From Cinclus cinclus (lineage: Eukaryota > Chordata > Aves > Passeriformes > Cinclidae), in contig NC_085050.1 in assembly GCF_963662255.1 (NCBI RefSeq), positions 2,077,694 to 2,141,693 of the forward strand: 64,000 bases of DNA, in the 5' to 3' direction. Below are positions 34,001-64,000 of the stretch, piece by piece; the stretch's first letter is position 1; each line of letters starts with the position of its first letter. The notes below the pieces were generated by a model. That model was given only the letters and a program-made list of their open reading frames with translations. It was not told the origin of the DNA and ran no database searches. The position numbers and the translations under genes are program-made.

Positions 34001-37000
34001 CAGCTCCCTGGGGCAACCAGGGCTTGTTCCCATGCTTCCCCACATCCCCAAGGCTGGCAGGGCTTGTTCCTGCATCTCCCCAAGTCCCCACGGTGCCCCT
34101 GGCGCAGCAGAGAGGGAGTGCACATGGTGCCAGAGCTGGCATCCCTTGGGAGTCACTGTGTAGCTCCCCAGGGCCATGGCCAACCCCATCCCTGTGTGGG
34201 GACGGTCCTGGCAGCACCATGACCCAGAGGGTGGCAGCGTGGGGAGCTGTGGCATGTGCCATCCTTGGGGCCACTCAAACAGCCTCATCTGCCTTTTCAC
34301 AGAACTTCTACAAGGAGATTGACCGCCAGGCCATGTACATCAGGTGAGCACGGCCCTGGGAACACCAGCAACACCTGGGGTGGGATGTCCCTAGCATTCC
34401 CAGTGGGATGGGTTGGGCAAAGCGGCCTGAGGGGCAGGGTGATGGCGTTCTGTGCCCAAACTATGCTGTTGTGCCCCACACATGGGACTGTCACTCCCCA
34501 CACACGGCTCTGTCACTCCCAGGTACCTGTACAAGCTGAAGGACCTGCACATCAGCTACGAAAACTACACGGAGGGAGCCTACACGCTGCTGCTGCACGC
34601 CCGGCTGCTCACGGTGGGCACGGGGGACTCAGGGGGGCTGTGAGGAGTGGGCAGCCCTGTGGGCTTGGTGTGACAGGTCCCCACTCCCTTGTGCAGTGGT
34701 CAGAGGAGTCAAATGCAGCCCCTGTGCCAGGCCCGCACAGCCTCCACCTGCACACTCAGCGCCAGCTGAAGGAGGCTCTGTACAACCAGATCATTGAATA
34801 CTTCGACCAGGGTAAGGTGAGTGTGGCCACCTGCCCTTACAGACCTTGCAGCCTCTGAAACCCCGCAACTGGAGGGAGCTGGGCTGGCTTAGGGCAAGTC
34901 TGGCCCCCTTGCCACTACTGCCCCCTGTTCCAAGCTGTTAGACCCCATTCTCAGCACATCTCTTCACTCCCCACTGCTGCAGAAGGGCTGAGACTGTCCT
35001 GCAGTGAGCCTGGGCTGGATGGTTCACCCCACACCCACTGTCCTTCATCCCATCGTGTCCTGTGACATCCTAGTGCAGCCCTTGTACTGCCAGGGGCTGG
35101 CAGCACGGACATCTAGGACAAAAGCTTGATAGGGTGGGTTGGGGGGCTCCAGGGCTGGAGGTGGTGGGAAGCCAAGTCTTTCTGCTGCCCACTGGACCAG
35201 CAGTCCCCACAGGAGAGCCCTCTCCCCCTCCTCACAGGGGGCAGGGGTGCAGGTGCCCCCACAGGCAGGGTGGTCTCTGCTGGAAGTCCCTGGTGCCCCC
35301 TTCCCCAGTTCACCCTGCACTGGGGGGCCCTGTCCTGGCTCCTCTCTTCTCCAGATGTGGGAAGAGGCCATCCACATCTGCAAGGAGCTGGCGGAGCAGT
35401 ACGAGAGCCACGTGTTTGACTATGAAATGCTGAGTGACATCCTGGTGGGTGCCCAGCTGGGCTGAGGGTGCTGCTGGCAGGGCAGGATGGTGGGGATGAG
35501 CTGGGGGGAGTGGGGGGGTCTGCAGGGCCCCACCCTCTCCTCATCCTGCCTCTGTCCTCTGCAGCAACGAGAAGCCAAGTTCTATGAGAAGATCCTGAAG
35601 GTGCTGCGGCCCAGCCCGGACTACTTTGCCGTGGGGTACTACGGGCAGGGCTTCCCCACCTTCCTCCGGGTAAGCAGAACCAGGAGCAGCTCCACAGCTG
35701 CCACCTCAATACCCAAGGAAAGCCACTCTTCACTGGTCTTCACCTGGATGTGAAGCTGTGGACCACAACTCTGAGTGTCATCATCCAGTCTATTCCTTAC
35801 CCAGCATCTATGTCTGTCCTGGAGATGGGTGTGTGTCCTAGGGACACGGTCAGAAGGTTTGCACAAATCCAGTCACTCTCCCCACATCCACCCATGTTGC
35901 CACACCCTCATAGGAGCTACCACATTTGCCAGGCAGGATTTGTCCTTGGTGACATTGCTTGGCTGGCACCAGTCCTGATTCTCTGTGTGCCTTCTTCCTT
36001 TTTCCTCTAGTTATTTGGTTTGGGAAAGTATTATTTTTTTTTTTTAGGAGGGGGTGTCTTCTGCTTGGCAGGGGGCTCAGCCTTTTCAGCACCAGCAGCC
36101 CAGTGCTCTGGGACTTGCTGGCCCTGCTCTGTGGCACAGAGATGAGCTGGCTCCTTCCTACCCTGCAGAACAAAGTCTTCATCTACCGGGGCAAGGAGTA
36201 TGAGCGGCGTGAGGACTTTGAGATGCGGCTGCTGAGCCCCTTCCCCCATGCTGAGAAGCTGAAGAGCACATCTCCCCCTGGCCAGGACATCACTGACTCC
36301 CCAGGGCAGTGTATCCTCTGTGCACAGGGACAGGGCTGGGAGGGTGGCTTGGTCTCTGCCCATCGCTCTCCCTGTGGGAATTCCTTAAATGCCTGTCTGT
36401 ACCCCTGGGGTTCACCCCTCAGGGCTCTGAACCCCCTCTCCCCAGCAGCCCTGTCCTCCAGTGTGTGCTTGTGGCTCCTTCACTCCCACAGACATCCAGT
36501 GCTTCACCGTGCAGCCAGCAGAGGAAGCCAAGGTCCGGCTCAAGGGCCGGAGCATCCCGGAGCAGATCACCAAGTGAGTGTCCAGCACAGGGAGCCCCTA
36601 CTCTGTGTGGGTGGGTGGGACATAGTGGGGGGCGTCTCCCATCTCCACCCCTTCACTCCCCACAGCTTCTACAAAGCCAACCATGTCCAGCGGTTCAGCT
36701 ACTCACGGCCTTTCAAGAGGGGCCCGAACGATCCTGACAATGAATTTGCAGTGAGTGCTGGGAGGAGCTGCCAGGACCCTCAGCTGGGAGGGACAGGAGA
36801 GCTGGGGGGACCCTGCAAAGAGCTAAGGGTCCAGAGGAGAAACAGGGGATCCCTGGTCCTGGGATGGGGAAGATGCTGGTCCTGTGCCCAGGGAGGTGGG
36901 ATCCCCCCATGCCATGAGGCAGCTGGGGGGTGATGGGAGAAGGGTGGGGAGTGACTGCTGCTCTTCCCACAGAACATGTGGATTGAGCGGACAGCCTTCA

Positions 37001-41249: not shown

Positions 41250-41255
41250 TTTATT
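41250..41255 (-). promoter_or_regulatory. Polyadenylation signal of the BNIP3-like gene
   Basis: TTTATT on plus is AATAAA on minus, 280 bases past the stop. The convergent DOCK signal is only about 250 bp away. Confidence 0.75.
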
Positions 41256-41534: not shown

Positions 41535-43089
41535 TCACAGAGGGTTGGCCGAGGAGGCTGCCAGGCGCTTCCCAATGTAGATCCTGGATTGGAGAGAGTG
41601 ACTGTGAGGCACTGGCACAGCGTGCTGGGCACCAGTAAGCCAGGAGCAAGGGGAGATGGCAGCAGACCACTGCAGCTGCTGGGAGCAATGCTACATGACA
41701 GCACTCAAGGATGAGCAGCCCAAATGCAGGAGTGTTCTCTCCTCCCCCAGCCGCAGGGTGAGACCCTCCAGATACTCACCCCAGCCCCAGGGTCAGCAGG
41801 TGGCTGAGCAGGAGTGAGGGGATGAAGAGCAGCAGCAGCTCTGAACTGAAAAGTCTCTTCTTCCTCCCCACTGCACCTTCCTGCAGGCTCCACAGCACTG
41901 GCTGGGGGGAGCACACAAAGGCAAATTCCCTGGGAAAAGTTCACAGTTAACAGGCACACAGGGCCACCAGGATGGGGGCCAGTAGGATGTGCTGGTGGGG
42001 GATGCAGGACTTACTTTGGAGACAGGTACCGAGGGCAGCGGGTACAGGCCCAGCCCAGGGACGCTGTCAGGCGTCGCTGCCTCCACTTGGCTTCCTCTGG
42101 CACATCTCTCTGGAAGGAGACAGGGCAGGTCAGAGCAGGGCCTGGGGGCACAGCAGGGTGTGGTGGGGGCAGCTCCCTCACCTGCCGGGGGTGGGGGCAG
42201 CCTGGTGGGGGCTGGCTGGGGGCAGGCAGCACCTCACTCTCCCCTGGCTGATCACTCCCATGGCTGACTCTGTCATCATCCCAGGCTGGGGAGCCCAGCA
42301 CGAGCAGGGCCCTGCAAACAGAAACCCTCAGTTACTGAGCCCAGCCTATGTCCCTCAGCACCAGCCACAGCTCAGCAGGGCTCTGGAGCCTGGCTCCCCC
42401 TCAGGACTCACCCATCACTGCTCTCTGTCTCCAACTGGGCCTCCAGCAGCATCTGCTCCACGTCGGCGTGGCAGGAGAACGACGAAGGTGCCAGCTCGGG
42501 TTCGGGGCAGCCTGGGCCACACCACAGCTCCACCCAGGAGCCTGGGGGGGCTGTCAGCCCCTGTGCTGCCCCAGGCCCACCCGTGCACCCCATCCCATCC
42601 CAGCTGGGAGCCCTCCCCAGCATACCCCGCACCCCTGCCTGCAGACCTCAGGAGCACCAAGTGCAGTCTCTCAGGACCTGCATCCACCTCTGCCCCCACC
42701 CTCGTGGTGCTCATCAACCCCCTGCTCCCCCCACTGATCCAGCCCCCGGTGCAGACCAGCCTGCCCAGAATTCCTGCGCTGCCTGGCCCCCGGGGCACGT
42801 CAGCCCCCCAGAAACCCCACCTGCGCTCCCCACTGACCCACTCCCCATACCCACAGTGCCCATCAACCACCCGGGACTCCCGGTGACCCAGACCCCCCCC
42901 ACGTGTGCACGTCAACCCCTTGATTCCCGGGCTCCCCCACTGTTCCCAAACCCCGCGGTGCCTTGGCCCGCCCGGGTCTCCCATTGTCCCGAACCCCCTC
43001 GGTTCCCCGGCCCGCCCGGATGCTCCATTGCCCCGATCCCGCCCCGGTGCCCCAGTTTCCCCCGGACCGTCGTCGCCGGTTCCCGCCAT
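41535..43089 (-). CDS. BNIP3-like: BNIP3/BNIP3L-family mitophagy receptor (third paralog)
   Basis: Six exons on the minus strand: 43089-43068 (tentative), 42541-42412, 42311-42182, 42109-42015, 41929-41780 and 41583-41535. They join to 191 codons plus TGA, close to BNIP3 (194). BNIP3 proteins sit in the outer mitochondrial membrane, bind LC3 and drive mitophagy. Residues 9-13 read SWVEL, the W-x-x-L LC3-interacting motif at the same place as in BNIP3 and BNIP3L, followed by DVEQMLLEAQ, the counterpart of DMEKILLDAQ. Exon junction 4/5 encodes SPKEFAF (family PPKEF). The tail anchor reads FIPSLLLSHLLTLGLG then IYIGKRL, nearly identical to the BNIP3 transmembrane segment. The centre (BH3-like part) is strongly diverged. 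Exon 1 rests on one ATG with good Kozak context and a weak donor (GTCCGG). It lies tail-to-tail with the DOCK gene and upstream of the AUP1 3' end. Confidence 0.87.
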
Positions 43090-43099
43090 GGCCCCGCGG

Positions 43100-43330
43100 G
43101 TGCTCCGCGCGCAGCCCCCGCCGCTGACAGTCACGTGACGCCCGCGAGCCCCCATGTAAATAAAACCACCGGCACCGGGCGCCGGTCTCTTAAAGGGGCG
43201 CTGGCTCCGCCCGCTGGGGCCCGCGAGCCGCAGCTCGCCCGGCCGCGGGGGAGGCGGCCCCGCCGCGTTGCCTCTTTAAGCGGCGCCTACGTGCGGCGCG
43301 CGAGCAAGCGTCGGCTGCGGCGCGTGCAGA
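43100..43330 (-). promoter_or_regulatory. CpG-island promoter of the BNIP3-like gene with CACGTG palindrome
   Basis: Dense CpG directly upstream of the BNIP3-like ATG. GTCACGTGAC at 43130-43139 is a perfect palindromic E-box of the TFEB/CLEAR type that also contains ACGTG, the HIF response core. A second ACGTG lies at about 43288. BNIP3 is a known HIF-1 target in mammals; regulation here is inferred from the motifs. Confidence 0.5.
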
Positions 43331-43589: not shown

Positions 43590-46500
43590 CCTTGCCGCGC
43601 CGTGTTTCTCAGCGAACCGCCTGCGGGAGAGAGCGCCCTCAGACACCGCGGGGCCGGGACCACCCGAGGGGCCTCCCGCGAACCCACCCCGGGATCGATC
43701 GCCTGTCCGGGCAGGAAGGAGCCCCGAGGGACCGGGACCCGCAGACACTGCAAGACCCCAGGGCCGGGCACCCTCTGGCTGGACGCTGGCTCTGGCGAGA
43801 CCCGTTTAATTCCAAGCTCAGGTGATGGCAGCAGGAGCTGCTCTGGGAGAGGCACGGGGGAGATACGGTCCCTGCTGGGGACATTCCCGATGCCGGGGCT
43901 GCCCAGAGCAGCTCATGGTCCCCCAGGACCACCCACAGGAGTCCCCATGCCCAAGCAGATCCCAGCCAGGTTTCCCAGTCAGGATGGATCCCTCAGCACC
44001 ACCCCAATGCCCAACAAGCCCAGGCACACTCAACTTCCCCTCAGACACATCCTCAATTTTCTCTATCTTCCTAAACCAAGACACACACACCAAAACTGGT
44101 CTCTTGTCCCAGGACTTGCCTCAGGAAAACCCGGTATAGAGATCAAACTCCCCCTGTACCCTCACACCAAGGAGGATTAACAGCGCTGTCCCTGGTGCAA
44201 ACAGGAATGTCCTGCCCACACCAAGGGTGCCATGGTGGGGGACTCTCACCTCCTGGCATAGTCGTACAAGGCTCGTTTCCTCTCCTGCAAGGACAGGTGA
44301 CGCTCCACAGGGGACTTTGCAAACTGCTTTGTAGCCGGCTAGAAGAGAAAGCACAGGAGCCATCAGGAGACAAATGAAGTAGGGTGGCTCTGGAAGGACC
44401 TGGCATGCCAGGCTGGTGCTCCATGCTCCTGGTTAGTCCTGAACACGAGCCACCAGAACAGGCAGACATGACCCCAAAGTACCTTGGAAGAAGGCGCAGC
44501 CACAGAGCCCTGGATGCCAGAAGCAGCTGCAGCCTGGGAGGTAGACGGGGCAGGCAGGTCTCCAGCCTCTTTACTCTCAGGGAAGAAGGGAACTCTCCCC
44601 TCCAGCAAGTTGGCAATGGTGGTGTCCACACAGTTGGTTTGGACTGCAGGGATGAAAGGACCTGTTAGAGATCAGGACACTCCATCCTGGCTGCCACTGT
44701 GTTCCAGTGCAGTGGCAGTGGGGACAAGGTTTCTTCTTTAAGACCACAGAAGGTGCTCCCACGTCCCTGCTGCCACCCCAGTCCCTGCTCACCCAGGTCT
44801 GTCCTGATGACTTCCAAGGGCACGTGAGGCAGCACCTCCTTGACCTGCTGTGCCATGGCCACGACCCACATGTCCTCGGGAGCACCCCCAGGCAGGCTGG
44901 GGGGCACCCTGGGCTGGGCTGCCGGGTGCTGGCTCAAGGCTGCAGGAGAAAGGACAGTGGTAAGGCACAGGGTGAGGGACTGAAAGTGGGCGGTCTGTCA
45001 CTGAGAACAGACAGAGGTCCCCCCCAAAAGCAGATCCTAGGCTGAGGTTCTGTAGCCAGGACTCCTCCTTCAGGACTCCCACCTGGGGCAAAGGGCAGCC
45101 GTGCCGTGTGCCTCAGCCTCTTCATGTGCTCGGTCCTGTCGGCAGCGGTGATCCGTGTGGATACCACACCCAGCTCCATGGCCAAGAGCTGTGGAACGCA
45201 GAGGAGTCACACATAAAACACACAACACACACATCCCAGGCAGCCCCTCTGCGCTGGGTAGCATGTCGGGGTACACGGGGCCATGGTGAGGGCAAGAGGA
45301 CTGGGAACTATTTTTCCAGGGCCTCTGGGATGCATTTCAGTGTTGCAGAGAGCACAAGGACCGGGAATATCATCCTGCCAAAACAGGCTGACAAGGAGAT
45401 ATGAAATCTTTGGAGCTGTGAAGTACCCAGCACATACAGGCAGGGTGGAGAAACAACTGCTTTGTTCTATTTGTGGCATTATAAAAAGGGGGTGAAAGGT
45501 TTGAACTCAATGGGAAGAGCCCTGACAACTGCAGAAAGGCTCAATATGGGGTGGCAAATAGGCCATGACATAACTGAGCTCTTGCAAGCGGCAGTGAGTA
45601 TGTACCAGAGCTCCCATCACACAAAAGACATCCAGAAATGCCTTCTGCAACTCTGCCTGCACCCTGCTCTCCTCTGTGCCCACCCCAATGCGCAGCAGTC
45701 GTACACATCCCTCTCCCACACCACCTTCCTACCTCCTGAACTCGGAGCGCAAAGTCCTCAACCCGCTCGTCCGCTCGTCTGGGGACAGACGGCATCCACC
45801 TGAGTGGGGACAACAGCACATGGAGCCAGCCCTGCAGGGAGCAGCCCTTGGGGACACCCTGCCAGGGGCAGCCATGCCATCCACGCCTCCACGCTCCCTG
45901 CTCAACCCACGCCTCTCCCAACAGGAGCATCAAACCCCAACAACCCCTCCCAAATCCAGGACATGGCAGAAGACAGAACTGGCTCACTGGAGCTCTGTTA
46001 GCCCTCAAATGTAACACGAGGGATCTGCAGTTCCCAGAAAAGCCTTAATGAGGATGTGTGGCCATTTACTTGGAAGTAGAAAACAGGTCACCCGAAATTC
46101 ACAGAACCAGGGAAAGGCTTTCCTTTGCTGAAATACACCAAGCCCTACATTTGATTCCCAGTCCCTTTCATTGCCCTCATTACAGCAGAGCTACTCAGCC
46201 AGCCTGGGCTCACCCAAGCCCTGGGCAGGGGTCTGGACCACCCCTGCACCATCCCCCTGGACCAAGTGCAGCCCTGCAGAGAATCACTACAGATCAGCTT
46301 CAAAAATACACCTGGAAACCTGAACTAAACACCTGGAGAGACAGACTCCTCTCCTTCCCCAGCAAGAACCATGAGCCCTTTCCACATCAGAAGCTGGTCC
46401 AGGAGTTGGACATGGCCAGGCCCAGACGGTGCTGAGCCCAGCCCTGCTGAGGCACCCAGGGAGGGAGCTCTCACTGCCACAGTGACACCACGGCCCTGCC

Positions 46501-49500
46501 CACCCTCAACCCTGCCCCAAACAGAAGAGAGAGACGTAGTACCTTACTTGATAAACTGTGAAGGGAACAAAGAAGGTCCAGAGCAGCTCCGTGATCCAGG
46601 AGGAGTCAGCCACGCTCTGGGGAAGAGGGCACAGTGAGATCCCACCCACGGAACAGGAGCTGGTCCAGGTTCCACTGGGGAGGGAGGTAGGCAGAGCACA
46701 CCTGGGCTGTAGCTGGAGGATTGGGAAAGTGGGAATAGCAAACCCAGTGCAAGCAGAGCAAGCCTCAGGGCAGCTTCACCCTCATTAGTCATCACCAGTT
46801 TTCACCTTTCCCAGTGGAAACTTTCCTCCCACCAAGACAGCAGCAAGACTTTCCCTCAGTATCCCCACATTCCCTACTAGTATGTGCCTTCAGAAAGCTA
46901 CAAAAATGCCTGAAAACCTACAAAAACCTACAAACCATGAATAATCCTCCCTCATTCTGGTGGCAACAGCCTCTCTGTGATGTCCCAACTCCTGTAAGCC
47001 CTCCCAGGGAACAGGACAAGAGGAAACAGCCTCAAGTTGTGCAAGGGGATGGATATTGGGAAAATTCCTCCTTGAAAGGGCTGCCCAGCTCTGGCACAGC
47101 TGCCCAGGGCAGGGGGAAGTCCCCATTTCTGAGGGGATTTAACAGCTGTGTGGATGTGGCACTTGGGGACATGGTCAGTGGTGGCCTTGTCAGTGCTTGG
47201 GGAATGGTTGGGCCCCACAGGCTCAGAGGGATCTCCCAACCCAAATGACTCTGTGATTCTCAGACAGGCTCGTGCCTGGTTTATCCCACAGCCTGGGAAG
47301 AGGAGCTGTACATGAGAAAAGCCCCAAAAGCCCAGCCACGAGGGGAATAGAGAAGGCTCATCTGGATAAACAGAAGCTCAGAACCCTAAATCCAAACACC
47401 TGGAGTGATGCCCACAGCCAGATTTCAGTTACACTGCCTGTGCCACAGGACAACACCCTCCTGCAATATTCCAAACAACTGGAGCTGGAGAAAATTCTTT
47501 CTTAACCCCAAATTTGGTGTTTGGCCCAACCCCGTGCCTAATATACATTACACAATTACAAAAGAAAATTTGCTATAAAACACCGATTGAACCATTCAAA
47601 ACATCACATCTCCAGTCCTTTCAGTTTCTGATGGTTTAAAATCACTCCAGAAATCCACCAGGATTACTCAGCCAATGTGCAGGAAGCACAAAATTGCTGA
47701 TCAGACTCTGGAGGTAAAATTTGAGGCAAGAAGTGACTGTAACCAGCACCTCCACACAGATCTTCTGTTCTCCCTGACATGCACAAGGGTGGGGATGCAC
47801 AGACAGACACACAACTTGTCACATCTCAGAATTTCTCAAAGGAACTAAACCCATAAAAGCATAGGATATTCCTTATACACTTTCCAGAACAGAAAAATCT
47901 CTCCCACTTCTCTGGAGGAGTCATTCAAGACATAACTTATCCTCACTGCTAGAAAACTGTATCTTCACCCATGCTTGTGGCCTGCCTCAACTCTATCTCT
48001 GCATCCCTGGCCTAGCAGGGGTTAACAAAGCTCTGCCAAATATTCCTGCAGTTCCCATCCCTCCACACACCCAGACGACTCCTCACCCTGCCAGGGGTTC
48101 CTTTGCTGTGTCCCACAGAAGCATCAGATCCACGAGTGACAGCCATGACTGGCAGCTCTCTGTGGTCACCAGATCATAAATAACAAATATAAAAAATAAG
48201 AAGTTCAACAAAGCCTTGCTGAGAGCAGTTTCCCTGCAATGCCTTTGGCATTGGAGCCATTGCCCTCACTGCTCCTGCACCATGTCCTGTGTCTGTGCCT
48301 GGGGCACCAGGTCAGAAAACTCCAGAGCCCTGTGTGATCTTTGGCACGAGGACTGACTGCAGCTGCTCTTCCATAGCAGGGAACTCACTGCACTGGCCAT
48401 GGAAGCCAGAAACACAGTGACAGCCAGCTGGGCCACCACACATCTGTCAGACTGGCCAAAGTAAGCAGGGGAGTCCTGACTGACCAAGTTCCTGAGAAAG
48501 GCACTGGGAACAGTGCTCTAGCCCTGAGCAGCTTTTCCCAGTGTGCCAGGACACGAGGCCAGGACACACCACAGGTTCCAAAGCAAGAGCAGAAGGAAAA
48601 GCTGTACCCACCCCACACCTTGTCCCTGTGCCCACCACTCACCACAGCCACCAATGGCCTCCGGACCTGCAGGGCAACAGGCTGGACCTCATTCAGGATG
48701 GAGAAGGGCCAGGAGCTGGAAGGGAGGAGTTCTGCAGTGAACGATCCCGGAATCACCTCAAACCATTCTGTCACAATACACCAGAGCTATGCCCAGCCAC
48801 CTGCCACAGGAATTCCCATTCCTCTGCTGTAGGAATTCTCATTCCCTCACCTGAAACGGAGCAGCCCAGCCCTGCCATTGGTGGCTGCCTCCTCTGGGAA
48901 CAGTAGCAGTGGGGGGTTCCCTTGCTGGGCTGAGTATTCCTTCAGGGAATCCACCAGCTCCGCACGGCTGCTGGTCACTCCCAGCTCCATGAATCCCCGG
49001 GACCAGCAGATGAACCCTGGGGCACCACTCAGGGCAGGCTGCAGGGAGAACAGGAGTGAGGAAGAAACACTACCCTGCCCACCCTTCCAGGCTCTCCTGC
49101 CCCTCCAGGCCCATCTTCCCAGGTGACAGAGGTGACAAAGTTCCTATTCATTAACAAAAATTCCTCTGGGACTGAGAGTGACCTGTGTTGACAGAACATC
49201 TTACTGCCAGGCCTTAGCCCCTGCTCCAGCCCAAATTCCACAGGAAATAGATTCCAAATCATCAGTTCAGATTGTGCCCTGTCTGTCAGTCACATGCACT
49301 CCCAGCTGCCCATGTCCCAGTGTTCTCTCCAGCAGTCTCTGACACACTTGGCAGGACACACACTGCTTCCAGGAGTCCCCCCTCTCCGGGTCAGGGGTAA
49401 ATCAATGGCTGTGCAGAACAAAGGAGCCACCTGGAGCCTGCTGACTCAGGAACTCCACACACAAAGAATTTTACAGGAGCAGGGACAGCACAGATCTAAC

Positions 49501-51149
49501 CAAGCACCACTAACGTGCAGCTCCCTCAGCACCCCCCCAGTGCTGTGGGAAACCCCACAACCAGCCCTGCCCCCTTATCCAGAAGGTCAAAAAAGGAAGC
49601 AGCTACTGGGATCTGTCCACCAAAACCAACCCCCACTGTAACAACTCCTGCTGCTCCTCACCCTGTTTCACTCTTTTATGCAGAGCCCAGGAGTGACACT
49701 GAGCCACAGAAAACACCTCAAGGTTAACACCCTGAGTTAGTAAATCAGATCTAGAGAGAGCCTAGAGGGAAGCTGGAGAGGGCATCTGCGTCAGAAACTG
49801 GAGCGACAGGACAAGGATTAATGGGTATGACTGAAAGAGGAGAAATTTAGGCTGGATATTAGGAAGAAATTTTTGGCTGTGACAATGACGATGCTGCCCA
49901 GAGAAGCTGTGGCTGCTCCTGGATCCCTGGAAGTGTCCAAGGCCAGGCTGGACAGGGCTTGGAGCCACTTGGGCTGGTAGGAGATGTCCTTGCCCATGGC
50001 ACGGGATGGCACTGAGTGGGCTTTAAACTGCTTTCCACTGTGACCACTGCAACACCAAATCGGGCAGAGCCGCCTGCCCGTGCCCCGCCCTCGAGGAGGA
50101 GCCCCAGCCGTGCCCTCACCGTGTTGCAGGAGGTGAGCAGGCTGACGACATTGTGGTCGAAGGGGGTGATGTGGTTGGCAATGAAGACCCTGGCACCGGC
50201 CCCGCGCAGCCGAGGGTCGCTCTGACGCACCAGCAACCCCAGCACGGAGCACATCACACGGACAATGAACCTGCCAGGGGAACAACGATCTTCCTCAAGT
50301 CCTGCCGCCCGAAGCACTGCTAGGTGACAGGACCCAGGAATTCTGGTAGCTGGACAAATGACACTGGGACCAAATGGAAATGACACGTCGGGTGCAGGAA
50401 TTGGTGTGGGGCTGGGACTGGGGGGCAGCAAGTGCCCACAGGACACCTGAGCAGCACGCCAGGCTTATCCACGTGCTCCAGACCAGTCCCTGAGCACTTC
50501 AGAGGTGGCTGCCAGCTCCGGGCTTGGCAGAGGAAGCACCTCCAAGGCTCCTGAAGACAAGGAGTTCCAAAGGCTCAGCTCCCCACAGATCCTTCCCTGA
50601 GCCAATCTCTCATGGCTCTGGACACCCAGGGGCCGGGGCGGCCCTGCCACCCCACACCCATCCCGGGCAGCAGCCGGAGCCCCCCGAGGTCACGCACCGG
50701 CGCACGACGCTGTCGGGCAGAGCGCAGCTGACCAGGAACACGTGGACACCGATGAAGACGCGCAAGACGAGCAGGCAGAGCCCCACAGGGGCGTAGAGCA
50801 GCAGGGCCAGGAGCAGGAACCCATCAGTCGGGAACCTGCAGGGGCAGAGAGCGGCCGGGGCCGCCTGAGCACAGCTGGGACGATCCCCAGGACCCGCCCT
50901 GAGGCCGCCGCTCCGCGTGGTCCCCCCAGCAAGTCTCCAAATCCATTTCGGGCATACCTCGGAACCTCCCCGGTCCCCCCACAGATCACCCCGACCTTCC
51001 CTACGGGGGTTCCGTGAGACACCCCCGCCCAGCGTTCCCGCAGTTCTCGCGCGGCTCCCCCGGGAGTCCCCACGGCGCGGGCCCCGGGCGGGCGCTCACC
51101 GGTGCGAGTCGAAGAGCCGCTCGGGGCCCGGGGCCGCGGGCGGCTCCAT
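43572..51149 (-). CDS. AUP1: AUP1, lipid droplet and ERAD factor
   Basis: Twelve exons on the minus strand: 51149-51100, 50835-50698, 50270-50120, 49038-48851, 48715-48643, 46616-46543, 45799-45733, 45188-45083, 44939-44793, 44643-44483, 44338-44250 and 43620-43572. They join to 430 codons plus TGA. AUP1 is a monotopic ER/lipid-droplet protein that recruits UBE2G2 for ER-associated degradation. It starts MEPPAAPGPERLFDSHR. The membrane hairpin is GFLLLALLLYAPVGLCLLVL. The acyltransferase-like domain keeps H96-x4-D101 (NHITPFDH) and LLLFPEEAATNGR. The CUE domain includes VKEVLPHVPLEVI and CVDTTIANLLEG. The UBE2G2-binding C-terminus reads SLQERKRALYDYARRRF. The donor at 46543 (AG/GTACTA) was chosen over GTAAGG five bases upstream because it alone restores the YQVRW junction. 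Order and orientation with HTRA2 and LOXL3 match human 2p13. Confidence 0.96.
47030..47265 (+). mobile_element. CR1 LINE 3'-end fragment
   Basis: Reads from GGATATTGGGAAAATTCC through GGCACTTGGGGACATGGTC to CCCAACCCAAATGACTCTG and GTGATTCT, the typical CR1 3' end. It lies in AUP1 intron 5 (46617-48642). Confidence 0.9.
47266..48600. other. Rest of AUP1 intron 5, AT-richer
   Basis: Unusually AT-rich for this window, notably 47500-48250. No exon or classified repeat was recognised. Confidence 0.5.
49820..50025 (+). mobile_element. CR1 LINE 3'-end fragment
   Basis: Contains GGCTGGATATTAGGAAGAAA, AGAGAAGCTGTGGCTGCTCC, AGGCTGGACAGGGCTTGGAG and ATGGCACTGAGTGGGCTTTA, in AUP1 intron 3. Confidence 0.9.
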
Positions 51150-51596
51150 CCCAGCCGTGCCGGCGCCTCACAGCCACCCCGCACCCGCCGCCATCTTGCC
51201 CGCGGCCGCGCGCCCGGCCCGCGCGGGGCACGCTGGGAGCGCGCCGCCTTCCGGGCCCGCACCGCGCCGCCGCAGCACTCTCGCCTCGGCCGCGGCCCTC
51301 GGCGGCTCCGGCGGACTCGGTGAGCGGCTCTGGCAATGGGACTGTTCTGCTCCGCTGCGGCGCCTGTTATCGGCACATCTCGCTGATAGCGGGACGGTAG
51401 CTCCCGACGGAACTACAACTCCCAGCGTACCCGCGGCAGAACCCTGCTTCTGGCAGGCCCCGCCCTGGGAACTACAGCTCCCGGCGTGCTTCGCAGTGTA
51501 GGAGAGCTGTGGACAGACTCCGCCTCAGGCCTACAACCCCCGTAGTGACTCGCGGCACGGCCCCGCCCCGGCGGGGCGCGGTTTCCGCTCGGCGGC
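51150..51596. promoter_or_regulatory. Bidirectional AUP1/HTRA2 promoter with ZNF143-type and YY1 sites
   Basis: A 447 bp CpG-rich gap separates the two divergent start codons. ZNF143/SBS-type sites ACTACAACTCCCAGCGTACC (51412-51431), ACTACAGCTCCCGGCGTGCT (51471-51490) and a weaker CCTACAACCCCCGTAGTG (51530-51547) are spaced about 60 bp apart in the same orientation. GCCGCCATCTTG at 51187-51198 is a perfect YY1 site 38 bases upstream of the AUP1 ATG, and TTCCGG near 51249 is an ETS core. There is no TATA box. This is the usual architecture of housekeeping bidirectional promoters. Confidence 0.75.
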
Positions 51597-54500
51597 ATGG
51601 CGGCAGCGGCACGGAGAGCGCGGATCCGGTGGATCCCGGTGCCACCGGCTGTACAGGGCTGGTGCCGAGCACTGACCGGGACCGCTGAGCCACCGCCGCC
51701 CCCTCCCCCTCCTCCTCCTTCTCATACTCCGCCGCCCTCCGCCAGGGGCCGGTCTCTGGCGGCGGCGGTGGGCGCCGGGGCGGCGGCACTGGTGCTGCTG
51801 TGGGCCCGGGAGCGCCGCCGACCCCCGCTGAGCGCCGCCGTGCCCGTCCCACCGCCCGCCCCGCCGCCTACATCCCCCCGCGCCGCCTTCAACTTCATCG
51901 CCGACGTTGTGGAGAAAACGGCGCCCGCGCTGGTCTACGTGGAGATCGTGGGCAGGTACCGGCACCGGGAGGTCTCCGGGAAGGATTTCCGTCCTTTCTG
52001 CGCAGTGTGGTCCCGGCCCCTCCGGAGGGCTCCTGCGAGTAGCGTGGGAGGGACCGACACGCGGCTGCCGCACGTCCCTGCCGCTTCCACATCCTCCGGG
52101 GCCGTCTGGTGAAGGTGCCTTCCAGGCTGCCTCCTTACTCTGCCTGGGAGCAGCATTTGGCAGTTCCCTTTGTGCTGTCTGATTAATGTTCTCACCATCC
52201 AATGCCTCCGGCCTCTCGGAGTGCCTCTATGCAGCAGCTCTGCCCTCCAGCTGGGTGACTGCTGCTTCAAGCTTGGTGTCATCTGTGTGCAGTTTCACCT
52301 TCTCTGCTTCACAATGTAAGGAGGCGTCAGCTGGTGCTGTTCCTTCTCTGGGTTTCTGACCTGCACTGGCAATAATTCACCACCAGCTGGGCTTTGGCCT
52401 TGCTGGTCGGTGCAGTTTTCCATTCGCTTCACCTGCCTACCAGGAGAACTAGGGCCTAGAGTTGTGAGTCTGCTCCTGCTATCAGGAAACATTGCTGTGG
52501 CCTCTAAGATGTTTGTTACTTGCTACAAGGCTGGGCTCTGTGTGTTCTGGCCTTGTCCCTGCACAGGTCATAGCCCTTCCGGCTCCTGCATGCTTCTGTT
52601 CCTGGTAGGATTACACCTTTGTAATGTGTACGTACAGCTGTGCACGACCTCTGGATTCCTGCTGCATTCGTGAGGATTCCTCTGTTTGTGCAGACTTGGG
52701 ACAGGGAAGGATTCCCCCATCGTGCCACTACCCATGCACCGTCACTGCTCCCTGCTGTCTCCCAGCCCTGTCCCTGCCACTCCTCCTGACCCGTACCCTC
52801 CTTGCAGGCATCCCTTCCTGGGCCGGGAGGTGCCCATCTCCAATGGTTCAGGCTTCCTGGTGTCCCCGGATGGGCTGATTGTCACCAACGCGCACGTGGT
52901 GGCGAACCGGCGGCGCGTGCGGGTGAAGCTGGCAAGCGGCGAGATGTACGACGCCGTGGTGCAGGACGTGGACCAGGTGGCAGACATTGCTACCATCAAG
53001 ATCAAGCCCAAGGTGCGTGCGTGTCACAGCCGTGGGGACACCGGGAGGCGGGGACGTTCCGTGTCGTGTTTTGTCTTGCTGACCGTCTTGCTCTCCACAG
53101 CATCCGCTGCCCACGCTGCCGCTGGGCCGCTCGGCCGAGGTGAGGCAGGGTGAGTTTGTGGTGGCCATGGGCAGCCCCTTTGCCCTGCAGAATACCATCA
53201 CCTCGGGCATCGTCAGCTCAGCGCAGCGCGGCAGCCGTGAGCTGGGCCTGGCTGCCACCGACATGGAGTACATCCAGACCGATGCTGCCATTGATGTAAG
53301 GGACATGGGGATATGGGAGGGAGGAGGGGCTCACGTGGAGCATGGGAGTTCTGGCCGGTCACCCTGGGATCGGCCTCAGGATTGGAGTCTTGTGGTGTGC
53401 TCACGCTCTCTCTCCTCTGCTGCAGTTTGGGAACTCTGGGGGCCCCCTCGTCAACCTGGTGAGTCCTGCCGCTTGTCCCCTTGCTGGCCAGGGCAGGGAT
53501 GTGCTGTGTGCTCTGTGTCCCTGTGTGGGAGTGCTTGTGGGTGCTGGGAGGCTTCCTGAAGGGAGGAGGGAGAGGAGGGCTAAGCGTGGCGTGAGAATCC
53601 CTGTGCAGTATCTGAGGCAGTTGGAGCTGATGGAGCTCCAGTGGAGACGAGGTCTGGCTGGTGCTGGCAGGGCAGACCCAGGGAGTGCATGGACTCATCC
53701 CCTGGCACCTGCCCAGCTTCAGCAATGCCGGGACAGCAGCCTGGGAAGGGATGGGCAGCCAGGTGGGGCCCCAGGCTGGTGCAGTAGTTCCCCGGCTCTC
53801 GACAGTGATCCCAGTGCCCTTTCCCTGCAGGATGGTGAGGTGATTGGTGTGAACACCATGAAGGTGACATCGGGCATCTCCTTTGCCATCCCCTCTGACC
53901 GGCTGCGGAAGTTCCTGCAGAAGGAGGAGCAGCGCAAGAGTGAGTGGGGACCTCCCTGCTTGGGTGTCGGGAGGGGAGGATGAGAGAGGGAAACTTTGGC
54001 ACAGCTAGGCTCTGGGCCCTTCTTCCCAAGAAAGGCAAGGAGAGTGGGAGAAGTCTTTGGGGCCTCATCTGGTGTCACAGGAAAGCTGTGCTGCTGCTGC
54101 TGCCTTGCCCTGTGTTCTCCTGTGACACTGGGGAGGGACATTCTCTGTCAAAAATCTGACAGACAAGGAAAGCCAAGTCACGGTGCAGAATGCAACACCT
54201 GGAATGCTCCTGCTGGTGCTGGGAACTGGACTGAGCTGTTGTAGGGATTTGGAATGGCTCTGGATGCTGCCTGCCCTGAGGACTCAGCCCAGCACTGTTC
54301 TGAGCATGTCTCTGTTTTCTAGCCATGACATTCCATGTCCTTTCCTTCCACAGGCTCTTGGTTTGGCAATGCAGAGACAAAGCGCCGGTACATTGGGGTG
54401 ATGATGCTGACCCTCACTCCCAGGTACCTGTCCTGAGGTCAGGGGTCAACAGACCAGTCCTGTTGGGGCAGGGATATGATGGGATCTTCACAACTAACAG

Positions 54501-59140: not shown

Positions 59141-62100
59141 CTATGAAATCTGGTTGTTGAGCTGACCTGGGTACTGCTCAAACCGCTTGTTGGCCTCCTC
59201 GCTGAGCGCATCTCCTAAGGACAGAGGGCAGGGGCTGTTGGCTCTGGTGCAGTGCATCCCCTGCCCTGCCAGCACCTTCCACTGTAGCTGCTCCCGGCAC
59301 TCCCAGCCCATCCTCATCCTCGTGGCTTCCTGCAGCCCTGTCACTGCCCTCCTCCCTCACCCCTGCGCCGTGCCCCAGGCCATTACCAATGTGGCAGCTG
59401 TGCACCCAGATGCGGTGCCCGTCGTACTTGCAGTTGCATTTCATGGCATTGTTGGTGAAGTCACTTTCTGCCACCTCGAAGTTGGGGTTGATCACAACCT
59501 GTGGAGCATTGACAGTGAGACCCCCTGTCCCAGACCTACAGGATGTGTCTCCCCAGCTGTGGTGGGTGTGCTGGAGAGCTCCAAGGCTGCTGATGTGGTG
59601 GGGTGGTCCTGTCCCTGTGCACCTTGTGCCCATGAGCAGTGCTGCTCAAAGTTGGAAAACCCATGTAGCAGCATGTCTGAGCAGCCCTGCACGTCTGTGG
59701 GCACTAGGACAGGCACTATCCCATGCCAGCACACACACCAGTCCCAATGAACTCCAGTGGGAGAGAGGGATGAGGGGCTGAAGTGTGTGGAGGGCTGAGG
59801 TGCAGGGACAGAGGCTGGGAACATGGCAAGAGGGGCTGGGGAGGGTCAGATGCAGCACCTGCAGGATGTAGTTGCCTGGCTTGACATCAGTGATGTCGAT
59901 CCACTGGCAGTCGATGTCATGTCGGTACAGGTCCCAGCAGCCCACGGTGATGCCCTGCTCCCCAAAGTTGGCACACTCGTACCTCTTGGCCACATCTGTG
60001 GGCAGGAGGAGACACAGCTTGTCCCTGCTGAGACCCCCAGCCAGGCCCCATGGTGGGTACACAGACAGGGATGGTGCTGCAGGGCCCCATGTTGCCCACC
60101 TTCCTCGCACTCAGTGTCCTCCAGGCAGAAGCTGGCCTTGTGTCCCTCGGCCACCTTGGTGCCGTTGGGGGTCAGGATGTCGTAGTGGGTAAAGATGTCC
60201 ATGCTGTGGTAGTGCCTGTGGGAGGGAGCAAGCACCTGCTCCAGACAGCCCTGTCCTGCATCAGCCCCCTGCCACCTGCCTGGTTCCTTGCCACCAGGAA
60301 TGTCCCCACAGCCCCTGCTCTGAGGTGGCAGCACTGTGAGGTTGGGCAGAGCTGTGTCCTGCCCTGGAAGGGGACACAGCTGTTCCCAGCCAGCTGGCCC
60401 AGGCAAGCAGAGGGCTCAGCTGCAGAGCACAGCCTGCAGCCCCATCCCTGCCCTTTTGGAGACCCCAGCCTCAACACTGCTCATTCATGAACAGCCCTAA
60501 GCCAAACCAATTGGACCCTAGGAAGCAGACTGGGGCTATCCAGTGTCACCCTCCCCCAGCGTCACTCTCATCCAGTGTCACCCTCACTCAGTGTCAAACT
60601 TGGATAGTGTCACTCTCTTTCAGTACCCAGTGCGGCCCTCACCCAGCCCACTGCAGCACCACCCCCCTCTCCCCACCCTGACCCCAGCCCCATCTGTCCC
60701 CTGCCCAACGCCCCTCCCTGCCCGTGCCCCACACACACACACACACCGGTGGCACTCGTGCCAGACCCAGGAGTGGCGGCCAGCCTTGGGGCGAAAGTCG
60801 GCACGGCCGCGGTTGTGGATCTGGGAGGAGAAGCGGAGCAGGCGGCGGTGTCCGTAGGGCCAGTTGGCCAGGCGGGCCGAGCTGGCCAGGCAGTTCTCCT
60901 CGGCGGCGCAGTACAGCATGTGCAGCGGCCGGTCCTCGATGTACGCCGTCTCCTGCACCAGCGGTGCATGCAGCAGCAGGTCAGAGGCAGCTGGGGACAG
61001 GCGGCTGCTCAGGGACAGGCCCTGCTCTCGGCAGAGATAGGGCGAGTGGAAAGGATGGGGTAGTGCCCAGTGCTGGCAGGGCTGAGCCAGACAGGGGGGA
61101 ATTGTGTCCTCCCTATTGGCTGGGCATTGACTGACCCCTGACCTCCGTCTGCAAACCCCACTGACCACAGCCCCTGGTCTCACAACGCTGCTGCCTGCAG
61201 ACCCCACTGCCCAGACCCCACTGCCCACAGACCCCACTGCTCGCAGACCCCAATGCCCACAGACCCCATTGCCTGCAGACCCTGCTGTCCACAAACCCCA
61301 CCGCGCGCAAACTCCACTGCCCGCAGACCCCACTGCCTGCAGACCCCACTGCCCGCAGCCCCCGTGGCCGCTCACTCTCGGAGCAGATGACGCCCGCTGC
61401 GAAGCGCGTGCCCGTGTTCCTGCAGCTCAGGCTGGCGCCGTGGTGCTGGCAGTGGCTCAGGGACATCTCGTGGCCAGCACACTTCACCCCGCTCATGACC
61501 ATCTCTGTCACGTTGCTGGCGTCCCAGTACCACGTCTCCTGGGGAGGGGGTGAGGCAGGGTGGGTGGAAGTGCTGGTGGCTGGATTGCCCAGGATCACTT
61601 ATACCCAGGCTGCAGCCAAGCCCCCCACCACAGCTGGCCAGGCCCCTAGCTGCCCACGTGGGTCCCATCCTGTGACACGGAGCAGCCACGTTCCTCTGTC
61701 CCCATCTATTCCCATGCAGCCCCATGGTCATTTGGGGAATACCAGCTGGTGCCTGTGCTCACCAGGGAGTCACCGGAACCCTCCCCGCTGGCACCTACCG
61801 TCACCGCGTGCAGGGAGTAGCCCAGGCCGAGCTGACGACAGGCCACCATGGCCTCCTTGGTGGTCCAGCCATCGCTGCAGACCGTGCCCCACTTACTGCC
61901 TCGCTTCACCTCCACGCGGCCCTCAAATTCCGTCCTCCCGCCAGCCAGGCGGATCTGCGGGGAAGCCCTGGGGCCGTGAGCGGGCACCCCAAGCTGTGCC
62001 ATCTCCTGCCCCACCGCCATCCCCGTCCACCCCTGTTCCCCAGCCCCGTGAGCAGTGGTGGTGGCTGCTGCTGCCCTGGCCAAGCTGGTGTTGGCACCTA

Positions 62101-64000
62101 CTTGTAAGCCGTGGTTAGCGAATCCCAGACCCAGCTGGCGACAGGCCACCATGGCCTCGAGCGTACCCCAGCCTTCGCCGCAGACCAGACCCCAGCGGGG
62201 CTGGTCCCCGTCGCCAGCCCCCACCGCCACCTCGACCCGCCCCTCGAAGCGGCTCCGGCCCCCACTCAGCCGAATCTGCAGAAAAAGGCAGTGGCAGCGT
62301 CATCACCATCACAGGTGATGCTCCCCCTGGACTGCAGGACTGTCCCAGCCCCTATCCTGTGCTGCAGGGGATTGGGAAGCCAGGAATTGAGCAGAGCCAA
62401 GCACAGCTTTAGTGGGCAGCGAACTTGCCAGAACTGGTGGATTTGGGGACAAGACACTGCTTTTGAGTTTGGGAATTGTCTCACCAGCGCAGGGGAAACA
62501 GTTCATTTTGAAATGGGATCATTTCAGAAATGACAGGTGGGAAAGAGTTAAAGATAATTTAAAAAGCTCAAAATGGATGAAACAATGGGCCAGGGCAAAC
62601 AGGAACAAGTGGCTCCATTTGCTTGTTTCATCACACCTTAAAAAAAGAAAAAAAATCTCTCTTGGTTGGCTCACCGTGATTTTTTTTTTCTGGTGTTTCT
62701 GCTGGGGAGTGGGCACAGGCTGGCAGCAAGAAAAGCAGCAGGGAGCAGCTGTTCCACACCTCCACTCACAGAGCAGCATCCACAGAGCACCCAGAGACCC
62801 CACAGCCTCCCCTCCACCCCTTCCTCGCAGGGGCTCCCACCCACAAAATCCCTGAGCTCCCAGGGCAGCCCTTGCCCCAGAGCAGGGAGAAATGTGTAGG
62901 GTGCAGAGCAGAGATGAGGTCCCATGGATCCTGTGGGCCTTTCCCAACACCCCACTCTGAGACCCTGCTGCTGGGAGCCCCATGGAGCCAGCAGCCCCCC
63001 GTGGTGCGCACCAGGTTCTCGTAGCCCATGTAGGGGATGTTGCAGCGAACAGCCGCATCCTCCGAGTGCTTGCAGTCCTCCTGTGTGATGTTCCTGAAGG
63101 GACAGTTCCAGAGGGACTTCTCGGTGCCCCGGCACTGCACCTCGTTCAGGTGAATGGGGCCCGTCCCTGCCGGAGGACAGGGCATCAGGACAGAAATCAG
63201 GGCCCTGTGACACAGAGATGCCCAGGGCCACCCTGTGCCCAAGGCTGCCCTCTCTTCTTGGCAGGTCTAAGGGAGTTGGACACTCCAGCCTCCACAGCAG
63301 CTGTTCCCCGGGGCAGTGTTGTTGGGTGGCTGTGATCCCACTGGGACGCTCTGTGTGCATCCAGCAGCCCAGTGCCCACAGGACACCCCAGCCAAGCAAA
63401 GCCTGGATAAGTGCCTCATCCACAGCTCTAAGAGGGGATGCCTGGCCCCTCTGCCCTGGCAGCCTCACCTTGCCCCATGCGTGCCCCGGTGAGGGCCTCC
63501 TTGGCGCTGCCGAAGCCCAGCTCGCGGCACACGACGCTGGCCGACTGCAGGTTCCAGCGGTCATCACAGATCGTGCCCCACTCGCTGCTCCTGAGCACCT
63601 CAACGCGGCCCTCACCAATCCTCGCACCGCCCTTCAGCCGGATCCGGGGCTGTGGGAGCAGGGACAGGTGTGGGGTAGTGTGGAATGGCACAACACAGTG
63701 CTGGCCACGGCTCCTGGGATGTGCAGGGACAGGACACCATCCCTACCTCCTGCTCTGTAGCTGGTCACCCAGCAACCCTGCAGAGCCCAGGGGGCAGAGC
63801 CCAGGGAACAGAGCCTGGCTGTGGGGCGCTGTCCAGCTCTGGGCCACCACAGGACTCATTCCCCTCCCTGCAGGGCTCACCTGGCCCTGCTGCTGCTGCT
63901 GGCGCTGTTTCTTCTTGTGGGCATTGCCAGCGGCGAAGAGGGGCCCGGGCACGCAGCTGACCACAGCGGGCATGCCAGCCCCGCAAGCTGCTGAGGAGTT
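59141..64000 (-). CDS. LOXL3: LOXL3 lysyl oxidase-like 3 (5' part outside window)
   Basis: Ten exons belong to the main form, minus strand: >64000-63881, 63649-63469, 63166-63012, 62275-62102, 61538-61376, 60990-60747, 60215-60100, 59995-59859, 59498-59387 and 59214-59141. They join to 491 codons plus TAG; the start and first two SRCR domains lie beyond 64000. LOXL3 is a secreted copper amine oxidase that crosslinks collagen and elastin. The first exon ends in the basic [11 protein letters not shown] linker, as in LOXL3. SRCR3 begins [22 protein letters not shown]4 begins [16 protein letters not shown] and continues [20 protein letters not shown]. The catalytic domain has the copper-binding [16 protein letters not shown] (R where human has G). 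It also keeps the LTQ Lys in [13 protein letters not shown] and the LTQ Tyr in [14 protein letters not shown], and ends [12 protein letters not shown]. An extra exon at 61954-61799 is described separately. Confidence 0.95.
60540..60632. repeat. Short tandem repeat, unit about 17-18 bp
   Basis: Imperfect units like CCAGTGTCACCCTCACT repeat about five times in the LOXL3 intron between the exons at 60215-60100 and 60990-60747. Confidence 0.65.
61140..61370. repeat. Minisatellite, unit about 14-15 bp, in a LOXL3 intron
   Basis: Many imperfect units of the form CAGACCCCACTGCCC run from about 61150 to just beyond the donor side of the exon 61538-61376. Confidence 0.85.
61799..61954 (-). CDS. LOXL3: Duplicated alternative SRCR4 first-half exon of LOXL3
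   Basis: A 156 bp exon (52 codons, phase 0 at both ends) sits between the canonical SRCR4a exon (62275-62102, 174 bp, also phase 0-0) and the SRCR4b exon (61538-61376). It encodes [31 protein letters not shown] and [15 protein letters not shown], a complete first half of an SRCR domain. It has acceptor CCCCGCAG and donor GTAGGT, the same donor as its partner. Both exons can splice to the ETWYWD exon in frame. Using both would put two half-domains in tandem, so mutually exclusive use is more likely. Transcript evidence is needed. Confidence 0.8.

Follow-up and report, generated by a model that had tools for sequence, protein, structure and literature searches.

The 64,000-nucleotide window analysed here (contig NC_085050.1, positions 2,077,694 to 2,141,693) comes from Cinclus cinclus, which we take to be the white-throated dipper, and carries on its minus strand, at 41535-43089, a gene of the BNIP3 family whose six exons are separated by five GT-AG introns and form an intact open frame of 191 amino acids. 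The spliced product scores 83.5 bits with the Pfam family BNIP3 (PF06553; cut-off 26, E 2e-23), over residues 7-187 and profile positions 6-181 of 184. Exon 1 (43068-43089), encoding MAGTGDD, is the weak point of the predicted model, because its donor (GTCCGG) is weak and a second in-frame ATG lies upstream. Exon 2 (42412-42541) contains the LC3-interacting region (LIR), in which WVEL is preceded by a serine (GSWVEL), and a WIPI-binding short linear motif (SLiM) with its central hydrophobic triplet, VEQMLLEAQLE; the conserved serine plus WVEL and the SLiM are both described for the BNIP3 family in PMC5526904. Exon 3 (42182-42311) encodes a diverged, proline-rich centre, and exon 4 (42015-42109) the counterpart of the BH3/SRPE stretch of BNIP3 and NIX, from which SRPE is absent (CTRCPRYLSPK). 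Exon 5 (41780-41929) provides EFAFVCSPQPVLWSLQ and most of the transmembrane anchor, and exon 6 (41535-41583) provides IYIGKRLAASSANPL before the stop, 280 bases past which a possible poly(A) signal, AATAAA, stands on the same strand (41250-41255). The C-terminal helix reads SHLLTLGLG, with one small residue (A in BNIP3) replaced by T; the SH...G pattern is the mark of the dimerising C-terminal transmembrane helix in this family. The tail matches the solved BNIP3 anchors PDB 2j5d (1.2e-10, residues 145-185) and 2ka1; disorder is expected for the protein beyond this helix. The intron phases (1, 2, 0, 2, 2) are identical in the dipper's BNIP3 and NIX genes, the latter two having been read by eye. 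A pseudogene or chance match is ruled out by the open frame over six exons, the GT-AG introns and orthologues reaching to ratites and the alligator.

A BNIP3-family search of the dipper genome found three loci, namely BNIP3 on contig C10 at about 0.66 Mb, BNIP3L (NIX) on C32 at about 2.41 Mb and the window itself on C8. Since both paralogues lie elsewhere in the same genome, the window gene is a third member of the family, as the preliminary description had proposed and as the Pfam match bears out, and a misplaced BNIP3 or BNIP3L is ruled out. Of the checks set in that description, the first, on the two paralogues, does not overturn it. In the dipper BNIP3 and NIX proteins, SSRPENIPPK and IYIGRRL or IYIGKRL occupy their customary positions. 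The third protein resembles NIX in domain order, the five intron phases, the LIR, the SLiM and the anchor, and resembles BNIP3 in family membership, gene structure and the match to the solved anchors, but NIX retains DWVSDWSSRPENIPPK and BNIP3 retains DWIWDWSSRPENIPPK, each at its separate locus. The SWVEL motif, EQMLLEAQ helix and PKEF motif claimed in the preliminary description are all present, as GSWVEL, VEQMLLEAQLE and SPKEF, together with a BNIP3-like membrane anchor; the "near-identical" transmembrane tail was overstated, with only 23 of 31 residues equal to dipper BNIP3 and 23 of 31 to dipper NIX. The gene is already annotated by NCBI in Cinclus cinclus, as "BCL2/adenovirus E1B 19 kDa protein-interacting protein 3-like isoform X2" (P0006). 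This protein is identical to the six-exon model over 70 + 97 residues and departs from it in an N-terminus that starts inside intron 1 and is read through it, and in skipping the end of exon 3. Other bird genomes label the gene "...protein 3-like", "BNI3L" or "uncharacterized", and the annotation "3-like" is easily mistaken for BNIP3L (NIX).

Searches with the dipper protein (best 120 of 189 matches), a sturgeon protein (best 120 of 602) and the alligator protein (58 matches) retrieved 239 proteins overall, to which a BNIP3, NIX or third-lineage signature was assigned by the letters of the tail; 20 of the 239 were left unclassed. The best 120 of the 189 dipper matches included passerines and many further orders of birds, from kiwi, ostrich and rhea to ducks and galliforms, as well as the alligator; among the matches listed, identity to the dipper protein was 44% for the alligator, followed by 34-41% for fishes. 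The alligator query matched birds, alligator and lampreys, and the best 120 sturgeon matches included third-group members from shark, coelacanth and lungfish beside true BNIP3 and NIX. No protein named as mammalian, turtle, squamate or amphibian bears the third-lineage tail among the 239 listed, 20 of them being unclassed. Three of the proteins (P0004, P0019 and P0101) come from contigs of 942, 1492 and 1062 bases with intron-free frames, the dipper gene measuring 1555 bases from start to stop, and would most simply represent spliced transcripts. P0004 seems to begin within a retained intron 1, whereas exons 1 and 2 are spliced together in P0019 and P0101. Of 111 archosaur rows, 30 show the junction DD|GSWV(E/Q)L, partial models making up many of the remainder; the bird models P0002, P0007, P0010 and P0018 show this joining of exons 1 and 2.

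A third lineage as such is not previously unrecorded. In Wu et al. 2017 (PMC5526904), three vertebrate lineages are described, BNIP3, NIX and BNIP3L2, with BNIP3L2 found only in ray-finned fishes and the coelacanth; the species table there covers chicken, zebra finch and Chinese alligator. Zebrafish bnip4 (= bnip3b), which is probably the same as BNIP3L2, is likewise in print (PMC4201762), and the bird annotations exist, so that the novelty attached to the lineage at first does not hold. What is new relative to the published distribution is that the third BNIP3-family gene survives in archosaurs. In the accessible parts of the literature searched on BNIP3L2, bnip4 and avian paralogues, no bird copy of this lineage was recognised. 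The BNIP3L of high-altitude songbirds (PMC7793309) was considered as a possible earlier sighting and rejected: compared by eye, its Ser/Gly substitutions at residues 40 and 42 can be placed in NIX if the numbering is moved by four residues (S-N-G in P0224), but not in the third gene of Passer (P0005) or Pyrgilauda (P0001). The gene in the window is therefore real and most likely represents, in archosaurs, a third lineage that was known but had attracted little notice; its presence corrects the published distribution.

Conservation, taken as the mean share of the commonest residue over 100 archosaur rows after 10 of 109 had been dropped (anchor-less isoforms, P0100 and P0106), is mosaic. The LIR (0.954), the SLiM (0.952) and the transmembrane segment with the tail (0.975) are highly conserved, whereas the BH3/SRPE stretch (0.736) and the exon 3 centre (0.726) are not. 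The LIR is complete in only 38 of the 100 rows and the SLiM in 41; the 38 rows that reach the LIR comprise 32 with SWVEL, four with SWVQL, one with SWEEL and one with SRTEP. Ostrich and kiwi keep the LIR, the SLiM and the anchor like passerines. A further block, KEFAFVCSPQPVLWSLQ (41879-41929, the first 17 residues of exon 5), has an archosaur conservation of 0.927 and stands in the place of KEFxFKHPKR..LSMR of BNIP3 and NIX.

The SRPE motif, a feature of BNIP3 and NIX function and not of the Pfam family PF06553, is present in 85 of 85 rows with the BNIP3 signature, 10 of 10 with the NIX signature and 30 of 30 non-archosaur rows with the third signature, and at its aligned place in 0 of 96 archosaur rows (four of the 100 being gapped there). 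A single R occurs at this place in 35 archosaur rows and a single E in 13, RPE occurs together in none, and the SRPE letters of the galliform P0096 lie elsewhere in the protein. The dipper reads RCPR, and C takes the position corresponding to NIX W144 in 90 of the 96 archosaur rows with a letter there. The dipper counterparts of NIX E72, L75, D77 and E81 are E, L, E and E. In trees the archosaur protein, like BNIP3L2, falls together with proteins of shark, sturgeon, teleosts, coelacanth and lungfish, and it has the LIR, SLiM, KEF and tail in common with BNIP3L2, but it differs from the BNIP3L2 of non-archosaurs, which keeps SRPE. As judged from these alignments, the archosaur loss of the SRPE stretch is both new here and conserved.

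For the phylogeny, third-group rows were chosen by score and tail, not from the sequence list of PMC5526904, and three sets were analysed, with 44 rows, with 42 (lamprey and alligator dropped) and with 37 (four teleosts and Anas dropped too). In the 44-row tree, BNIP3 (100/99) and NIX (98/95) form starred clades, and the third group, of 20 rows, receives 75/83. With 42 rows the third group is separated from BNIP3+NIX at 100/99, and the approximately unbiased (AU) test rejects both archosaur+BNIP3 and archosaur+NIX (p-AU 0.011 each); with 37 rows the third group again receives 100/99, and archosaur+NIX is rejected (0.027). Outside BNIP3+NIX, the third group brings the archosaur gene together with those of sharks, sturgeons, teleosts, the coelacanth and lungfish. 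When the dipper protein was compared by BLASTP with 18 chosen relatives, the top five matches were all third-lineage proteins (fishes, lungfish, shark, chimaera). Over the 31-residue anchor, the dipper shares 26 residues with the lungfish third protein, 25 with that of the eel and 24 with that of the sturgeon, compared with 23 for BNIP3 or NIX. The tree alone would be good but not decisive, its support being strong only without the two longest branches, and the archosaur gene is likely of the same lineage as BNIP3L2.

The neighbourhood provides independent support for an origin as an ohnolog from two rounds of whole-genome duplication (2R) and decides more than the tree. Three paralogon markers lie in the window, namely a DHR-2 exon of a DOCK1/2/5-type gene (36169-36291, plus strand), a convergent neighbour that matches PDB entries for DOCK2/DOCK5 at 2e-27 to 6e-26 and falls below the Pfam cut-off for DHR-2 lobe B; an INSYN2/FAM196-type gene (18082-21859, minus strand), antisense between DOCK-type exons, the nesting being read by eye; and a lysyl oxidase with SRCR domains of LOXL3 type (59394-62299, minus strand). 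In the dipper genome, relatives of the DOCK-type exon occur on C10 (83%), C32 (68%) and C17 (66%), with a distant one on C7 (44%); relatives of the window's INSYN2-type gene on C8 occur on C10 and C17; and lysyl-oxidase genes occur on C8, C10 and C32, plus two loci on C16 and C42. All three contigs with BNIP3-family genes (C8, C10, C32) thus have DOCK1/2/5-type and lysyl-oxidase genes, and two of the three have an INSYN2-type gene. Four contigs sharing the marker set in overlapping subsets is as expected from 2R, and the ohnolog idea raised beforehand is upheld by these markers. Spacing is wide on C10, where BNIP3 lies at 0.66 Mb, DOCK at 2.34 Mb, INSYN2 at 2.45 Mb and the lysyl oxidase at 13.97 Mb. 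A tblastn comparison with short peptides of DOCK, INSYN2, lysyl oxidase and HTRA2 gave no match in 22 loci (L009-L029, covering C32 2.4065-2.6164 Mb, and L008 on C10); in the genome search the DOCK-type exon of C32 lies at 2.748 Mb, which is some 0.34 Mb away from BNIP3L. A local or retroposed duplicate is not favoured, as the introns and the paralogon neighbours are kept.

Taken together, we favour, at a probability of roughly 0.7, the reading that birds and the alligator possess an intact and conserved third gene of the BNIP3 family, in which BNIP3L2 likely survives among amniotes and which encodes a predicted mitochondrial mitophagy receptor that would be free of PPTC7-FBXL4. Several observations weigh against it, and those concerning ancestry bear on whether the gene could instead be a fast-evolving, archosaur-specific duplicate of BNIP3 or NIX and no old third lineage. 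The third-group branch of the 44-row tree is weak, with a program warning of joined long branches that persists with 42 rows; the archosaur branch is very long (more than one change per column in all three trees) and could be drawn outwards; and the 37-row AU test leaves archosaur+BNIP3 unrejected (p 0.076). In the BLASTP comparison, the coelacanth and alligator third proteins score below BNIP3 and NIX rows, and the anchor of the shark third protein, with 22 of 31 residues shared with the dipper, is no better than those of BNIP3 and NIX. Such a duplicate is nevertheless very unlikely, since the starred BNIP3 and NIX clades exclude the archosaur gene in three trees, the five introns are retained, the anchor is nearer to those of the lungfish, eel and sturgeon third proteins than to BNIP3 or NIX, and the surroundings, which have DOCK-, INSYN2- and lysyl-oxidase-type genes of their own, are those of a duplicated paralogon and do not suit a local or retroposed copy.

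Other adverse observations concern function. The aligned rows without full LIR coverage number 62 of 100, and the galliform copies (P0095, P0096 and P0108, with P0101 and P0107 alike) are strongly diverged, at 45-55% identity and well beyond the majority of bird copies, P0107, which is close to quail P0108, reading SRTEP instead of SWVEL; the third gene may be relaxing in galliforms. This divergence, the lost BH3/SRPE stretch, the freely drifting centre and the recurrence of anchor-less annotated isoforms (8 of the 239 retrieved proteins) would all be compatible with a decaying gene, transcribed with an eroded centre and providing no working mitophagy receptor, which might be kept for its membrane-targeting tail or for regulating its paralogues by heterodimerising. 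We regard decay as unlikely, given that the LIR and the SLiM, which a receptor needs and a mere anchor does not, are conserved nearly as well as the tail, that 36 of the 38 rows reaching the LIR read SWVEL or SWVQL, and that the motifs and anchor are kept as far as ostrich and kiwi.

With a conserved third receptor as the preferred reading, the conservation of the LIR, the SLiM and the anchor indicates that the autophagy-recruiting and membrane-holding parts are kept. The C-terminal helix would anchor and dimerise the protein in the mitochondrial outer membrane. The VEQMLLEAQLE stretch is predicted to initiate the phagophore by binding WIPI2/3, and the SWVEL LIR would bind LC3/GABARAP and add to the WIPI2 contact, as modelled for NIX. 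In the WIPI2-binding tests reported in PMC12339401, NIX E72, L75, D77 and E81 were mutated jointly and the LIR separately. The PPTC7-binding SRPE is the route by which FBXL4 limits NIX and BNIP3. According to PMC11316107, the NIX mutants W144D and RPE/AAA fail to bind PPTC7, show greater stability and increase mitophagy, and FBXL4 mutations lead to mitochondrial disease through elevated mitophagy. Because SRPE is lost from the archosaur protein and NIX mutants at SRPE are unbound by PPTC7, its docking site for PPTC7 would be gone and the receptor would escape PPTC7-FBXL4, so that transcription, in place of constitutive turnover, would determine its amounts. We infer the localisation, binding, stability and mitophagy of the third protein from its sequence.

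A more specific and tentative proposal, which we consider somewhat less probable than even, is that the archosaur third 2R receptor acts as a NIX that naturally lacks the brake, with transcription controlling its level, possibly via a TFEB-type box, GTCACGTGAC. If true, archosaurs would offer a natural experiment in which mitophagy runs free of the turnover that, when lost in humans, leads to disease, and, given FBXL4 disease, such a receptor would reveal how animals cope with having no brake on it. The loss of SRPE predicts a third receptor that ignores PPTC7 and FBXL4, and chicken, quail or finch cells without BNIP3 and NIX could retain a mitophagy receptor. The GTCACGTGAC sequence, which we take to be a perfect Coordinated Lysosomal Expression and Regulation (CLEAR)/E-box, lies at 43130-43139, 40 bases upstream of the exon 1 ATG, and occurs a single time in the window, where 0.06 would be expected; it appears in 6 of 100 shuffles. 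An N-terminal extension with RHVT over this position is present in 18 of the 111 archosaur rows, which, from protein rows only, suggests that the extension may be a conserved promoter element.

Directly upstream of the third gene lies an AUP1-like gene on the minus strand (approximately 43600-51500, read by eye), which we take to be AUP1 from its C-terminus; the single open reading frame (ORF) given for it (50613-51095) had no Pfam match. It is followed by an exon of a serine protease, presumably HTRA2-like, on the plus strand (52674-53150; Pfam Trypsin_2, 3e-11). Four of the ten neighbour ORFs given lacked a Pfam family match. The order LOXL3, HTRA2, AUP1 is presumably also that of human 2p13. 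The DOCK-type exon belongs to a fourth DOCK1/2/5-type gene at about 7000-39000 on the plus strand (bounds by eye), with the antisense INSYN2/FAM196-type gene inside it. To our knowledge, mammals have only DOCK1, DOCK2 and DOCK5 and only INSYN2A and INSYN2B, and the entire DOCK-INSYN2-BNIP3 block next to AUP1 may therefore have been lost in mammals.

Within the third gene, exon 5 holds an alternative acceptor at 41902, 28 bases in, whose use gives a frame-shifted product without the membrane anchor. The anchor-less C-termini among the retrieved proteins belong to Corvus, Zonotrichia, Serinus, Corapipo, Falco, Morphnus, Calidris and Athene models, and the isoform could be a soluble LIR-bearing form.
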